A DNA stretch of 56,465 nt from the NCBI GenBank assembly GCA_944324315.1, contig CALUVW010000012.1:1-56465 (forward strand). Reading direction: 5' to 3'. Positions 11,034 through 56,465 of this stretch are shown here, piece after piece. The stretch is from Candidatus Gastranaerophilales bacterium (GTDB lineage Bacteria > Cyanobacteriota > Vampirovibrionia > Gastranaerophilales > Gastranaerophilaceae). The notes below the pieces were generated by a model. That model saw nothing but the letters and a program-made list of their open reading frames with translations, had not been told where the DNA came from and did not search any database. Position 1 is the stretch's first letter; the number at the start of each line of letters is the position of its first letter. The position numbers and the translations under genes were made by a program.

Positions 11034-11816
11034 TCAGCGCCACGGATAGTCATCTTTAATTTCCCAGTTGTCATATTGTATCAAGGCTCCGCAATTCCAT
11101 CGCAATTTTCTGTCTATGTTTTCATTACATCCGAATTTTGCTTGATTTTTAAGTTTATCGCGATCCACATTGGTGAAATTGGAAGAATTATCCTGCCATG
11201 TAAAAAATCTGACTTTTGTATCATTTGATTTTATAGGTATTACCATCATAACATCGTGCCTTGCATAATCTCTGGATTCATCATTATAAATTGATTTATT
11301 TCCGTTAAAACTTGCTGTGATGTATAGAGTATCTGGTGTATAGATATTATTTTCTGTATTACCATCGGTCATAAATGTTAATACTGTACCATTGCTTAAA
11401 ATAAGGTAAGGACTTCTTGTTCCTTCTATCCCGCTTTCAACTACTTTAAAATATGGCGCAAAATATTTGTCTATCATCTTTTTGACATGTTCTGGGTTAT
11501 TGATATCTGCAGTCCCGTCATTTGTGACACTTTGCCCGTAATCCCAGTTTTTGGGAGTTTCGTTTTCGGCAATAGAGGATAATAAGGCATTAGATACAAG
11601 ACTGTATGTCTGCTTAACTTTGGTTGCAAAAACTTTTTTCTGATGCTGCATTATAAGTGTCGGCATCGTCATCGCCGCAACGACACCGATTATACCGAGG
11701 GTGATGAGAACTTCTGCCAGAGTAAAAGCTGGTCGACGAATATTTCCAGAGGTGTCTATTAGTGTATCACTCTCCCTAATAAGGGAGGGTCGGGGTGGGT
11801 ATGGATTTGTTCCCAT
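11034..11816 (-). CDS. Pseudopilin-like protein with prepilin-type signal
   Basis: The core is RRPAFTLAEVLITLGIIGVVAAMTMP: cleavage expected between Ala and Phe, Glu at +5, hydrophobic helix. The globular part contains a conserved GTVLTFMTDG-like beta strand and ends CGALIQYDNWEIKDDYPWR, related to the tail of the gene at 1. The ATG at 11816 has no good ribosome site. The frame continues open upstream through the C10 tract at 11907-11916 if one more C is present, giving a 303-residue protein from the ATG at 11944, which has a strong AAAGGAG. The true N-terminus is therefore likely longer than shown. Confidence 0.8.
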   Translation of the reverse strand: MGTNPYPPRPSLIRESDTLIDTSGNIRRPAFTLAEVLITLGIIGVVAAMTMPTLIMQHQKKVFATKVKQTYSLVSNALLSSIAENETPKNWDYGQSVTNDGTADINNPEHVKKMIDKYFAPYFKVVESGIEGTRSPYLILSNGTVLTFMTDGNTENNIYTPDTLYITASFNGNKSIYNDESRDYARHDVMMVIPIKSNDTKVRFFTWQDNSSNFTNVDRDKLKNQAKFGCNENIDRKLRWNCGALIQYDNWEIKDDYPWR

Positions 11817-11850
11817 CCTCTTATCCTTCCCTAAAAAGGGAAGGAAGATA
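11812..11850 (-). repeat. Leader repeat module (LGKDKRMG-coding), copy 1
   Basis: On the minus strand this stretch nearly matches 48724-48761, including an internal palindrome (CTTCCCTT...AAGGGAAG). In both places it encodes LP(F/L)LGKDKRMG in frame with the downstream pseudopilin. The adjacent stretch 11771-11801 is a second module encoding YPPRPSLIRE. Confidence 0.75.
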
Positions 11851-11896
11851 TTAAAACAAAAATAATTTCTAAAATTTCTGAAAAATGTGATTATAC

Positions 11897-11944
11897 TTAA
11901 CTTTTCGGGGGGGGGGCAATCCTGAAAGCATCTTCTCTATTCAT
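11897..11944 (-). CDS. Short leader ORF with C10 tract upstream of pseudopilin
   Basis: Encodes MNREDAFRIAPPPKS and stops. An AAAGGAG site lies 7 bases before the ATG. The C10 tract (11916-11907) sits between Ile and Lys codons. One extra C would shift translation into the open frame that leads to the prepilin motif 73 residues from the start. Here the coding strand carries C, whereas the four other loci carry G. Confidence 0.6.
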   Translation of the reverse strand: MNREDAFRIAPPPKS

Positions 11945-14956: not shown

Positions 14957-15085
14957 AAAACTAATTCCTCACATCCATTTCTTTTCGCATATATTTTATC
15001 ATAAAAAAAGATAAGTATTGAATTATATCAAAATATAGTTTATAATAGTAAATGAGATTTTGTAAACAAAAGAAAGGAATGATGT

Positions 15086-15139
15086 ATGAAGAGATTAAAT
15101 ATGTTTGAAACCCTCGGGGGGGGGGCGTATCTAGGCTAA
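15086..15139 (+). CDS. Short leader ORF with G10 tract upstream of pseudopilin
   Basis: Encodes MKRLNMFETLGGGAYLG and stops. An AGAAAGGA site precedes the ATG and a TATAAT lies about 45 bases upstream. The ten G at 15116-15125 encode the three Gly and the first base of the Ala codon. With eleven G the frame would continue without a stop to the pseudopilin ending at 16161 (358 residues in total). Confidence 0.6.
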   Translation: MKRLNMFETLGGGAYLG

Positions 15140-15180
15140 ATAGAGGTCCGGAAGTCAAGAAGTCAAGCAAGTTTAAAAAA

Positions 15181-15206
15181 GTCATCCTGAACGTGTTTCA
15201 GGAACT
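15181..15206 (+). repeat. REP-like palindrome in pseudopilin leader, copy 1
   Basis: A 26-base imperfect palindrome (ATCCTGAA...TTTCAGGA core). Near-identical copies lie at 24425, 48610 and 56341, each at the same place between a G10 tract and a pseudopilin gene. A degenerate copy in reverse orientation lies at 31310-31335. Confidence 0.8.
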
Positions 15207-16161
15207 CATTTTTAGATGCGAAGAAGCCAAGATGAATAGATGCGAAGCTTTTATCAAAAATGAATTTCGTTGCAATTTTACCAAAATAGCTAAAAATGAA
15301 AATAATCTGCCTTCCTGCCCTCCGGTCTTCTGTTCTTCTGACAGTTACCCACCCCAACCTTCCCTAATCAGTGAGGGGAAATCAGATACTATCCCTTCAC
15401 TCAACAAAAAACGCAAAGCAGCCTTTACTTTGGCAGAGGTTCTCATCACGCTTGGAGTCATTGGTGTAGTTGCGGCTTTAACAATGCCCTCATTAATAGC
15501 ACATTACCAGAAGAAAGTTCTAGTTGGTCAGATAAAGAAAGCATATTCTACCATAAATGAAGGTTTTCGACAGATAATGGTAAATGATGGGTGTACAGAT
15601 TATGCTTGTGCAGGTTTTTGGGGAAAAGATTATGCGGGAAGGTTTAGTGAAACAAATAGTAATAAAATAATAAACACATTTAAATTATCTTCTGTGTTTG
15701 TGGATAGTGGTTTAGAACCATCTTTTATTCCTAGTCATTATATGTACAATATAACGTATTTAAAGTATGAGCAATCTTTACCTTTTGCTTATTTACTTGG
15801 TACTTCAGGTGGCGGTGGTATCTTGGGTACATGTCCGGATGGTATGATTTTGTGGATTTCTAATAACCGCATTGGTATATCTGATTATTATGCGATGTCA
15901 ATCTTGTTTGATGTCAATGGTGAAAAAGGTCCTAATGTTGTGGGCAGAGATATTCATGAGTTATTATTAATAGAAAATGTCATTACGACTAAATATACCC
16001 AGACTTATAGAAATACATTTAAACGACTTAACCCGGGTTTATCCTTTGCTATCGCTCTTCAAACTGATATTGAAAAAAACTGTTCAAAAGAAGAAACAGA
16101 ATCATCTGGTTCATCTTGTCTTACTAAAATTATAAACGAAGGCTGGCAGATGAATTATTAA
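15193..16161 (+). CDS. Pseudopilin-like protein with long repeat-built leader
   Basis: The prepilin-type segment KRKAAFTLAEVLITLGVIG begins about 77 residues after the first in-frame GTG. Before it come repeat-coded stretches (QELIFRCEEAKMNRCEA and YPPQPSLISEG) shared with sister genes. The globular domain has a Gly-rich strand (GTSGGGGILGTCPDGMILW), GEKGPNVVGRD and a Cys-containing end, and closes with GWQMNY as does the gene at 48712. No ribosome site fits the GTG at 15193, so initiation probably occurs at 15086 when the G tract is in the right length. Unit is closed by a terminator at 16167. Confidence 0.8.
   Translation: MFQELIFRCEEAKMNRCEAFIKNEFRCNFTKIAKNENNLPSCPPVFCSSDSYPPQPSLISEGKSDTIPSLNKKRKAAFTLAEVLITLGVIGVVAALTMPSLIAHYQKKVLVGQIKKAYSTINEGFRQIMVNDGCTDYACAGFWGKDYAGRFSETNSNKIINTFKLSSVFVDSGLEPSFIPSHYMYNITYLKYEQSLPFAYLLGTSGGGGILGTCPDGMILWISNNRIGISDYYAMSILFDVNGEKGPNVVGRDIHELLLIENVITTKYTQTYRNTFKRLNPGLSFAIALQTDIEKNCSKEETESSGSSCLTKIINEGWQMNY
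15346..15380 (+). repeat. Leader repeat module (YPPQPSLI-coding)
   Basis: A C-rich module also found at 48772-48804 and, reversed, at 11771-11801. In all three it is read in the same frame as YPP(Q/R)PS(L/P)I just upstream of the prepilin motif. Confidence 0.65.
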
Positions 16162-24320: not shown

Positions 24321-24377
24321 ATGAAGAGATTAAATATGCCTGAAACACGCGGGGGGGGGGCGATTCCCAGCTATTAG
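24321..24377 (+). CDS. Short leader ORF with G10 tract upstream of pseudopilin
   Basis: Encodes MKRLNMPETRGGGAIPSY and stops. The sequence from AAGAAAGGAATGATGT through the first six codons is the same as at 15086. The tract occupies 24351-24360. One extra G connects it to the pseudopilin ending at 25333 (337 residues in total). Confidence 0.6.
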   Translation: MKRLNMPETRGGGAIPSY

Positions 24378-24424
24378 AGAATAATTTATCTAAGAGGTCA
24401 AGAAGTCAAGCAAGTTTAAAAAAT

Positions 24425-24450
24425 GTCATCCTGAACTTGTTTCAGGATCT
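24425..24450 (+). repeat. REP-like palindrome in pseudopilin leader, copy 2
   Basis: Perfect-looking copy of the palindrome (GTCATCCTGAAC...TTTCAGGATCT), read in frame as NLFQDL. It is followed by direct repeats of GATGCGAAG. Confidence 0.8.
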
Positions 24451-25333
24451 GGTAATTAGATGCGAAGAAGCCAAGAGGCATAGATGCGAAGCTAGTATCG
24501 TAAAAATTTCCCCTCTCTCGGAAGAGGGCGAGAAATATGTCGGGTGCACCCCTCATCCGGTACTTTGTACCACCTTCTCCCACACAGTGGAGAAGGAAGA
24601 AATAGACGCTTCACACTTCACTCATCACCTTTCACTTAAAAAGCGAGCCGCCTTTACTCTTGCAGAGGTATTAATCACACTTGGCATCATTGGAGTAGTA
24701 GCTGCTATGACAATGCCTTCTTTGATAAACAAGTATCAAATGAAATCTTATGAAGTAGCTTTTAAAAAGCAATATTCTGTTTTACAAAATGCAATAAACT
24801 ATCTTGTATTAGATAGCAATATTTCCGCCTGTTATATATATTACCCAAGTGGTCAAATGAGTTATTCAATGGTTAGAGATGATTGTCAGGCTCTTCAAGA
24901 TTCTTTGGTATCACAATTAAACCTTACAAAAATTCCCAGAGATCCGGATTATACGTTTGCTAAAAAAACTGATGTACTTGCAAACGGCGGTAAAACTGTA
25001 AACATTAACTGTTCTTATGACGCAGCGGCTCAAGGTTCACCTATTTATTCAACAAAGGATGGTGCAATAATTATTTTTACAGATATAGGAACTTCTAATC
25101 AGCCGTTTATTATAACAGATGTAAATGGCAAAAAAGGACCTAATAAATGGGGATATGATGTATTTTTTATGACACTCTCTAAAAAGGACCGAAATGATTC
25201 TTCTACTGAGGAAAGAATATTTTTGACAGATGAGTATTGTTCAATAGTAGAAAAAGGCGGACGTTTGCCAAGAACTATTTTACAGAATAAAGAAAAAACA
25301 GAGGATAGTGATTTTAATATATTATGGGATTAA
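24437..25333 (+). CDS. Pseudopilin-like protein with long repeat-built leader
   Basis: Prepilin-type segment KKRAAFTLAEVLITLGIIG, about 72 residues after the first in-frame TTG, then NKYQMKSYEVAFKKQYSVLQNAI. The globular domain has four Cys and a strand DGAIIIFTDIG, then DVNGKKGPNKWGYDVF, the pattern found in all members here. The leader includes FQDLVIRCEEAKRHRCEA and another repeat-like stretch rich in Pro and Thr. It ends convergent to tsaB with a shared TTAA stop. As at 15193, the likely true start is the upstream leader ATG (24321). Confidence 0.8.
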   Translation: MFQDLVIRCEEAKRHRCEASIVKISPLSEEGEKYVGCTPHPVLCTTFSHTVEKEEIDASHFTHHLSLKKRAAFTLAEVLITLGIIGVVAAMTMPSLINKYQMKSYEVAFKKQYSVLQNAINYLVLDSNISACYIYYPSGQMSYSMVRDDCQALQDSLVSQLNLTKIPRDPDYTFAKKTDVLANGGKTVNINCSYDAAAQGSPIYSTKDGAIIIFTDIGTSNQPFIITDVNGKKGPNKWGYDVFFMTLSKKDRNDSSTEERIFLTDEYCSIVEKGGRLPRTILQNKEKTEDSDFNILWD

Positions 25334-48448: not shown

Positions 48449-48562
48449 ATGAAAAGATTTATTATGTCAGAGGAGCTGCCGGCAGAATTAAAGCAAACTC
48501 AACCATGTGTTGATGCAGCTATGCCTGAAACTCTCGGGGGGGGGGCGATTCCGAGCTTTTAG
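48449..48562 (+). CDS. Leader ORF with G10 tract upstream of pseudopilin
   Basis: 37 residues ending MPETLGGGAIPSF. AAGGAAAGGAA lies before the ATG and a TATAAT about 40 bases upstream. It is longer than the forms at 15086 and 24321 but has the same end. The tract is at 48536-48545. One extra G fuses it to the pseudopilin ending at 49647 (399 residues in total). Confidence 0.6.
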   Translation: MKRFIMSEELPAELKQTQPCVDAAMPETLGGGAIPSF

Positions 48563-48609
48563 AAAACAGTTTAGCTAAGAGGTCAAGAAGTCAAGCAAGT
48601 TTAAACACT

Positions 48610-48635
48610 GTCATCCTGAATTTATTTCAGGATCT
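48610..48635 (+). repeat. REP-like palindrome in pseudopilin leader, copy 3
   Basis: Same 26-base palindrome as at 15181 and 24425, with a change in the loop (TTTA), read in frame as NLFQDL. Confidence 0.75.
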
Positions 48636-48711
48636 GTTAATTAGAAGCGAAGATTCAAAGAAGCATAGAAGCAAAGCAAATTTAGAAGGTAGGATAAGAA
48701 ATGATAGCAGG

Positions 48712-49647
48712 TTGTTAACTCCAATCTTCCTTCCCTTATTAGGGAAGGATAAGAGGATGGGTGATAATCAATACCCACCCCAACCCTCTCCCATAGGAGA
48801 AGGAAGAAATGCCGCTTCACCCTTCACTCTTCACTTTTCTCTTAAACAACGGGTAGCATTTACTTTGGCAGAGGTTCTCATTACCCTTGGAGTCATAGGT
48901 GTAGTTGCTGCTTTGACAATGCCTTCATTAATTGCTAATTACCAGAAAAAAGTCTGGGTAAATCAATTAAAAAAAACTTATGCAACATTAAATGAGGGAT
49001 TCAGACAAATAATGGCAAAAGAGGTGTGTACAGATTTACGCTGTGCAGGTATAGCCGCAGCAGTTGGACCAAATGATATGTATTATTACACTGATGACTA
49101 TATTGATTTTTTTAAAAACAAAATGATTGAGACATTTAAACTTTCTAATGTTGAAAATTTGAGCGCTTCAAATTCCTCAAATAATTATTCTTATACAGTA
49201 AAAACAGGCAAATCAACGTATACTTTCAATAATTTATTGCCGTTGTTAAATGATACTTCTGGTTATAGCAATAAGCATTTTTTAGGGACAACTCCTGATG
49301 GTTCAGTTTTAGCTTTTAGTATTCAAAATAATAATTCTCTTAATGAAGGACCTTATATTATAGTTGATATAAATGGTCAAAAGGGACCTAATACTGCAGG
49401 AAGAGATATTTTTTTGTTAATGTTAGGGAATAACAATCAGGTTGTAATATACGGCAGTAAACTTTATTGGGATTCTTGCGGCGGTAGTGAAAGATTCAAT
49501 AATCCAAACCATGTAAGACCAACTTTTCCATCATATGAAGAATTTTATGAAATGATTAAACAATCTTGTTTAGCTGATGACATTCCAGGTGCTGGTATGA
49601 CTTGTGCAGCTGTGATTGAACATGATGGCTGGCAGATGAATTATTAA
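48712..49647 (+). CDS. Pseudopilin-like protein with long repeat-built leader
   Basis: Prepilin-type segment KQRVAFTLAEVLITLGVIG about 49 residues after the first in-frame TTG. The leader includes LPLLGKDKRMG and YPPQPSPIGEG, the same modules as at 11816. The body has NYQKKVWVNQLKKTYATLNEGFRQIM, almost the same as the gene at 15193 (YQKKVLVGQIKKAYSTINEGFRQIM), DINGQKGPNTAGRDIF and the same C-terminal GWQMNY. The two are therefore close paralogues with different mid regions. A terminator follows at 49654. Confidence 0.82.
   Translation: MLTPIFLPLLGKDKRMGDNQYPPQPSPIGEGRNAASPFTLHFSLKQRVAFTLAEVLITLGVIGVVAALTMPSLIANYQKKVWVNQLKKTYATLNEGFRQIMAKEVCTDLRCAGIAAAVGPNDMYYYTDDYIDFFKNKMIETFKLSNVENLSASNSSNNYSYTVKTGKSTYTFNNLLPLLNDTSGYSNKHFLGTTPDGSVLAFSIQNNNSLNEGPYIIVDINGQKGPNTAGRDIFLLMLGNNNQVVIYGSKLYWDSCGGSERFNNPNHVRPTFPSYEEFYEMIKQSCLADDIPGAGMTCAAVIEHDGWQMNY
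48724..48761 (+). repeat. Leader repeat module (LGKDKRMG-coding), copy 2
   Basis: Nearly the same as the minus-strand stretch at 11850-11812, in the same frame relative to the pseudopilin. The YPPQPSPI-coding module follows at 48772-48804. Confidence 0.75.
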
Positions 49648-56197: not shown

Positions 56198-56290
56198 ATG
56201 AGAAGATTTGTAATTAAAGAGCAGCAAGCCGAATGCTGTGATACAGTAGTTATGCCTGAAACCATCGGGGGGGGGGCGATTCAGGGCTAA
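56198..56290 (+). CDS. Leader ORF with G10 tract at window end
   Basis: 30 residues ending MPETIGGGAIQG, after an AAGAAAGGAG ribosome site and a TATAAT about 35 bases upstream. The tract is at 56267-56276. With one extra G the frame stays open through the REP-like palindrome (56341-56366) to the end of the window (about 63 further codons), so a pseudopilin gene should follow beyond it. Confidence 0.6.
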   Translation: MRRFVIKEQQAECCDTVVMPETIGGGAIQG

Positions 56291-56340
56291 CAAGAGGCCA
56301 TGAAGTCCAGAGGTCAAGAAGTCAAGCAAGTTTACAAAAT

Positions 56341-56366
56341 GTCATCCCGAACTTGTTTCGGGATCT
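56341..56366 (+). repeat. REP-like palindrome in pseudopilin leader, copy 4
   Basis: Copy with paired changes in both arms (ATCCCGAAC...TTTCGGGAT): the C in the left arm is matched by G in the right arm, so the hairpin is kept by compensatory change. It is followed by ATTAGATGCAAAGAGGC and GATGCGAAG as in the other copies. Confidence 0.8.
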
Positions 56367-56465
56367 CAAAATTAGATGCAAAGAGGCAAAGAAGCATAGA
56401 TGCGAAGTCTTTAACGTAGAAAAGATAAACAATTTAAGTATTTTGTATGGAACGGCTACGTTCCC

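Follow-up and report, generated by a model that had tools for sequence, protein, structure and literature searches.

The locus at 15074-16161 raises the question of how a long leader made of repeats can stay open in exactly one reading frame ahead of a pseudopilin-like gene. It lies in a stretch of 56,465 nt from a Candidatus Gastranaerophilales bacterium, the whole of which is called the window in the following. An earlier note on this DNA had taken the open leader as evidence that the region is translated and that repeats were recruited into a pre-sequence. It overlooked the run of ten G at 15116-15125, the feature that explains the open leader.

Anatomy of the tract-pilin loci

All elements of the locus lie on the plus strand. 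An AAGGA that resembles a Shine-Dalgarno (SD) sequence (15074-15078; identified from the sequence and a start scan) is placed 7 nt ahead of an ATG, and the ATG with its ten codons (MKRLNMFETL, 15086-15115) precedes the G10 tract (15116-15125), the putative slip site. The tract is followed by a repeat-mosaic leader (15126-15423), which ends at the Ala of the prepilin cleavage site A|F (15421-15426), and by the pseudopilin body (15424-16161), with which the gene ends. The body carries the prepilin motif FTLAEVLITLGVIGVVAA. The prepilin peptidase motif [AG]|FxxxE and its hydrophobic helix are present as AFTLAEVLITLGVIGVVAA, and both PF07963 (N_methyl, across 15193-16158) and TIGR02532 score over their cut-offs. 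Only the pilin frame is open in the leader, and it is open from just 5' of the G10 tract through the A|F site.

The sole good start for this leader is the pair of SD (15074-15078) and ATG (15086), 30 nt upstream of the tract. With ten G, the frame of this ATG is closed by a TAA at 15137-15139 and gives a product of 17 aa; a tract of G11 (or G8) is needed for it to join the pilin frame. Because the start is 5' of the G10 or C10 tract and off the pilin frame by one base, the leader can be read only after a +1 slip. The claim that the region is translated thus needs qualification: the pilin frame is indeed open, but most loci have no start after the tract, and their upstream start is one base off.

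In the ON state the pre-sequence would span 15086-15423 and comprise 113 residues. Type IV prepilin leaders are short and positively charged as a rule, if not without exception, and the leaders of tract-less paralogues are mostly short, while the one described here is not of this kind. Because of this 113-residue pre-sequence, we term the product of 15424-16161 pseudopilin-like and make no claim of a working pilus or secretion system. Directly past the gene, on the minus strand, lies a bacterial large SRP RNA (Rfam RF01854, 16220-16474). It is the single Rfam match in the window, and none was found in the leaders.

The window comprises four complete tract-pilin genes, a fifth that is truncated at the contig end and, at the opposite end, a pilin gene that is likewise incomplete. 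At the second locus (plus strand), the ATG and N-terminal codons (24321-24350) are followed by a G10 tract that requires +1 (24351-24360) and by leader (to 24652) and pilin body (24361-25333). The third, on the same strand, comprises an ATG with 29 N-terminal codons (48449-48535), again a G10 tract requiring +1 (48536-48545), and a leader (to 48858) with REP, LGKDKRMG and YPPQPS modules ahead of its pilin body (48546-49647). On the minus strand, an ATG with N-terminal codons (11917-11944) precedes a C10 tract (G10 on the plus strand; 11907-11916), which likewise requires +1 and so shows the identical off-by-one with the other base; its leader with LGKDKRMG and YPPRPS (to 11727) and its pilin body occupy 11034-11906. 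The fifth locus (56198-56465, plus strand) has its G10 at 56267-56276 and a leader that is open until the contig end, where the pilin is missing. Both ends of the window, which are contig ends, sit inside pilin genes (1-776 and 56198-56465), and several tracts of 11-12 nt are likewise found at contig ends. Consequently, longer tracts may be under-assembled.

Open leaders built from repeats

Most of the modules that had been reported for 15126-15420 were recovered there: the REP-like palindrome (15181-15206, translated as VILNVFQEL), both copies of the direct repeat TAGATGCGAAG (15213-15223 and 15237-15247) and the C-rich module encoding YPPQPS (15346-15363). The exception is LGKDKRMG, which is absent from this leader and sits in the neighbouring leaders at 48546-48858 (plus strand) and 11906-11727 (minus strand).

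Among 98 leaders of at least 30 codons (8,110 codons), the pilin frame contains 0 stops, while the +1 and +2 frames contain 606 and 734. Base shuffles gave an expectation of 1.45 open leaders out of 98. As this set was picked as open, closed loci were counted separately as the denominator: in the genome from which the window comes (own genome), one tract locus with a downstream pilin is closed (L170, by an in-frame TGA) against 77 open ones, and in its congeners three tract-pilin loci are closed against 133 open. The earlier note had looked to stop depletion and to substitution patterns as signs of coding. Stop depletion is pronounced, and stops in homologous leaders are rare rather than frequent. 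The substitution pattern points in the same direction, with pN/pS lowest in the pilin frame (independent pairs: 0.665, compared with 0.90 and 0.75 for the other two frames), but this signal is weak. Openness is thus not the same as strong conservation, as pN/pS in the pilin frame is just mildly under that of the other frames.

That the modules are kept in one reading frame, as had been proposed, is borne out by alignments between leaders: of 1,133 ungapped matches of at least 45 nt, many of them of common ancestry, 1,119 preserve the codon phase. Inside the own genome, the common frame is in part a matter of duplication of whole 5' ends. The REP palindrome occurs in 117 copies genome-wide at up to 3 mismatches (reversed control: 0), which excludes it as a leader-only module. 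In the leaders of own and congeneric genomes together, all 53 copies fall in the three stop-free readings (VILNLFQD 44, HPELVSGS 3, ILKQVQDD 6) and none in the three closed ones. What is found is therefore a genome-wide palindromic repeat inside ORFs, inserted with the frame open.

Taken together, the leaders retain an open pilin frame under weak constraint on their amino acids. Stop depletion, phase-keeping matches and the modest pN/pS make it very probable that they are translated as a pre-sequence. However, to call the repeats recruited is too strong, given this weak constraint and the three different open REP readings that congeners use. For the same two reasons the leaders look like a tolerated spacer, in which any stop-free insertion appears acceptable.

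Frame state and tract length in the genus

The own genome (1.88 Mb) contains 123 prepilin motif sites, very many for its size; the DNA analysed consisted of stretches around pilin genes and tracts, in which 104 of these sites were examined. We found 77 pilin-type loci in which a G/C tract of at least 9 nt follows a start codon; this is an ATG preceded by an SD in nearly every case. The start finder was blind to the pilin frame, and some start assignments are predictions; L110 and L034 were scored as requiring +1 using a better SD-spaced ATG, which in L110 lies 4 nt upstream. Of these 77 loci, 67 need +1, 9 need -1 and one is in frame. The congeners (Candidatus Gastranaerophilales, 133 loci) gave a similar picture, with 121, 7 and 5. 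Hence, 6 of 210 loci are in frame where one third would be expected (P about 2e-28, relatedness ignored), although P values indicate scale only, given the non-independence of related loci. This count excludes random phase variation in which a third of the loci would be ON. Past the tract, the ATG frame meets a stop after a median of 3.7 codons. Among tract-less pilins of the own genome whose upstream region was covered, in contrast, 19 of 23 have an SD-preceded ATG in frame, mostly near the motif.

A single inherited frame can be dismissed as the source of this pattern, because many loci differ in the phase from ATG to tract and the pilin frame shifts accordingly. Across own and related genomes, the loci that need +1 are distributed over the three start-to-tract phases as 121, 21 and 19 for G tracts, and 27 further ones have C tracts; 18 C10 loci belong to the own genome. 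Since all three phases and the C tracts obey it, the +1 rule has been kept through several frame changes.

The relatives were sampled from patterns with at least 7 G after ATGAARAGATT, so that length beyond 7 was unselected while this 5' family was selected; the contig scan of relatives demanded at least 10 G, and the tract-11 sets were chosen for 11 G. An unselected length spectrum is thus given only by the own-genome census and the counts of exact 9-, 10- and 11-nt tracts on both strands, which are 9/97/9 in the own genome, 2/73/1 in the relative G007 and 0/169/6 in the relative G026. At the pilin loci of the own genome, the tract is exactly 10 nt long in 66 of 77. Outside the genus, G/C tracts of these lengths are rare or absent, with sporadic occurrences in a few other genera of the family.

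Tracts of other lengths behave differently. Among pilin-type loci with an 11-nt tract, about 16 of 25 are in frame (six relatives, chosen for 11 G), while 10-nt loci almost never are. Judged by these sequences, natural ON alleles exist at tract length 11. The orthologues L044 and L087, whose bodies are 99% identical, have G10 and G9, respectively; they are the only near-identical pair in the two sister species compared, and they indicate that tract length changes faster than sequence. Two features of slipped-strand phase-variable genes are thus seen here, a long homopolymer between start and body and lengths that differ at homologous loci with both ON and OFF frames. At L100 the homopolymer is interrupted (G7-A-G3) and the gene is in frame; L144 and L149 have substituted tracts and retain the +1 state. 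Of 19 genus genomes scanned, 18 have an intact MutS1 that scores over the family cut-off, and the tracts may thus be fairly stable.

Two individual cases deserve mention. In the own census the only clearly in-frame pilin-type tract gene is L036 (G11; contig C1 of genome G000, about 57200-57400, minus strand), whose product of about 500 or more residues has YadA-like GNNTAIG head repeats behind a prepilin-type motif. The near-identical pilin paralogues L334 and L335 (genome G034, genus g3) both have G11, but their upstream A-runs differ in length by one base, so that only one of the two is in frame. This indicates a second slippery run in the same gene.

Besides pilins, six other tract genes of the own genome are mixed in state. 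Glycosyltransferases of the GT2 type with tracts are typical phase-variable surface-sugar genes, and two of them (L037 on contig C2, L076 on C8) have G10/C10 tracts and are in frame at 10, as is a third ORF. This is expected if the lengths are real and the state is set gene by gene. Two further non-pilin ORFs (L291 on C1 and L296 on C25, one EF-hand-like) have C10/G10 after the ATG and need +1. Finally, a choline-kinase/APH-like gene (L298 on C45) is split by C11 and out of frame, while C10 would be in frame, as in a LicA-like switch. The bias of pilins toward OFF against these six genes (Fisher P about 0.0008) comes from a small comparison that was made post hoc.

Proposed slippage at the tract, and related systems

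G/C tracts of about this size are classic contingency tracts, and we consider it probable, on the sequence evidence presented here, that these loci make up a pseudopilin set of unusual size that varies in phase by slipped-strand mispairing, with OFF, one base short, as the default state and with open, repeat-mosaic pre-sequences past the switch. Dozens of loci in the genome share one build: SD and ATG, a short N-terminus, a homopolymer of G or C that in most cases is exactly 10 nt long, a spacer that stays open up to the prepilin cleavage motif and is a repeat mosaic in many loci, and the pilin body. At 10 nt the gene would be OFF, as the ATG frame terminates a few codons past the tract. Slipped-strand mispairing during replication in living cells would add one base (10 to 11) and link the ATG to leader and pilin, and contraction of the tract would switch the gene OFF again. 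The ON product would be made and displayed after a prepilin peptidase had removed the pre-sequence (113 residues at the 15086 locus) at A|F, and the benefit may be bet-hedging of surface pili. With the switch on its 5' side and the cleavage site on its 3' side, the leader would tolerate inserted palindromic repeats provided that the pilin frame stays open. A possible reason for +1 rather than -1 is that stability is lower at an ON length of 11 nt than at 9 nt, which would keep ON brief.

However, two observations do not sit easily with slipped-strand switching: length 10 is sharper than freely varying tracts would give (9/97/9; 0/169/6), and OFF is near-universal, which plain random switching does not predict. 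Given so uniform a length, slippage at the RNA level is possible, if rather doubtful. RNA polymerase would add one G (or C) at a fixed 10-nt tract in some transcripts, every cell would make low pilin levels, and the DNA would stay unchanged. The tract would then be a fixed genus-wide code, with homopolymer length instead of promoter strength setting pilin expression, a scenario to which we assign a minor chance. A uniform 10 with a constant +1, in all start-to-tract phases and with both bases, suits a polymerase with a 9-10 bp hybrid. In bacteria, runs of 9 A or T are known to permit slippage (PMC5009743), the tract is hardly ever interrupted by synonymous changes, and MutS1 is present. Yet the efficient cases that are documented concern A/T runs, and T5C5 requires a stimulatory structure (PMC5009743), whereas no RNA structure was found adjoining the tracts (mean z between -0.39 and 0.00). 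The in-frame tract-11 alleles argue against it as well, as do the glycosyltransferases of the own genome, whose frame is intact with a 10-nt tract. Programmed -1 ribosomal frameshifting at GGG or CCC codons would fit the slippery codons in every phase of a 10-nt run and the early stop of the ATG frame (median 3.7 codons). We nevertheless regard it as improbable, because ON alleles occur at 11, a downstream structure was not found, and C tracts require the same shift as G tracts despite different decoding tRNAs; the 18 C10 loci act like G10 loci, by which a codon-specific ribosomal slippery site is ruled out.

It could also be argued that the true tracts are 11 nt long and in frame, and that short-read assemblies give 10. 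The named genomes do look like short-read MAGs, tract errors grow with length (PMC4965091), and several 11-12 nt tracts sit at contig ends. However, Illumina sequencing of a synthetic C11 template gave the correct read in about 94% of families (PMC9187656), and contigs with SPAdes-style, MEGAHIT-style and older scaffold names concur. Furthermore, lengths of 9, 11 and 16 are reported in the same genome set, both glycosyltransferases of the same assembly have their frame intact with a 10-nt tract, and the substituted tracts (L144, L149) still need +1. Thus, a sequencing artefact is an unlikely source of the off-by-one, and we give this explanation little weight. Least credible of all is that the leaders are non-coding 5' regions with repeats and that the pilin start is internal, near the motif. 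Some leaders do contain an internal ATG or GTG (GTG 15193 in the 15126 leader), but the 8,110 leader codons are free of stops in the pilin frame and in no other, short leaders such as GGGRNLGSAPAFTLAEVL lack an ATG start, and the strong SD precedes the upstream ATG, all of which speaks against this view.

If slipped-strand switching is true, these uncultured gut relatives of cyanobacteria own a very large phase-variable surface set, with at least 77 pilin-type switches in 1.88 Mb, almost every one resting one base below ON, and a relative of 2.2 Mb has up to 169 exact-10 G/C tracts. Since gene callers will miss their starts, tract pilins are probably annotated as truncated or overlooked. With their uniform length and direction, the tracts would allow one to test cleanly how the resting state of contingency loci is set by selection, and to tell slippage at the DNA level from slippage at the RNA level. 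In addition, the leaders illustrate how palindromic repeats may become part of proteins through insertion between a switch and a cleavage site.

Both homopolymer phase variation and in-frame palindromic repeats are already known, and our literature search found no paper combining Gastranaerophilales with phase variation. The novelty seems to lie in the scale reached within a single pilin family, in the near-uniform rest state one base short with G as well as C, and in pre-sequences built from repeats between switch and cleavage site. The closest parallel is Bifidobacterium breve, where a G-tract splits signal and pilin ORFs, the reference is out of frame, replication slippage joins them, and the joined form is enriched in mice (PMC9187656). 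The sortase-dependent pilus loci bbr_0113 and bbr_1889 of strain UCC2003 share with our loci the intragenic G-tract, the out-of-frame reference and the gut commensal host. However, they represent two sortase-pilus clusters with mixed G11/G12, while here type IV-like pseudopilins occupy tens of loci per genome and nearly all tracts, of G or C, are exactly 10 and one base short (PMC9187656). In Neisseria, pilC and the wider phasome likewise have a homopolymer within the frame of a type IV pilus gene that switches translation ON and OFF, but PilC is a pilus-associated protein, the tracts are G9-20 with about 15-20 poly-G tracts per genome, and a repeat-mosaic leader is lacking (PMC5953494). The polyG contingency loci of Campylobacter jejuni resemble ours as many G/C tracts in surface-related genes with translational ON/OFF states; strain NCTC11168 has 29 loci with tracts of at least 7 in mixed lengths and states, in contrast to 97 of exactly 10 here and one family that is near-uniformly OFF (PMC4965091). 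Rickettsia palindromic elements, finally, are in-frame palindromic repeats in coding sequence as well, a likeness by description. While those reside in unrelated metabolic genes, the REP-like modules described here are stacked in a cleavable pre-sequence past a switch tract (PMC10969869).
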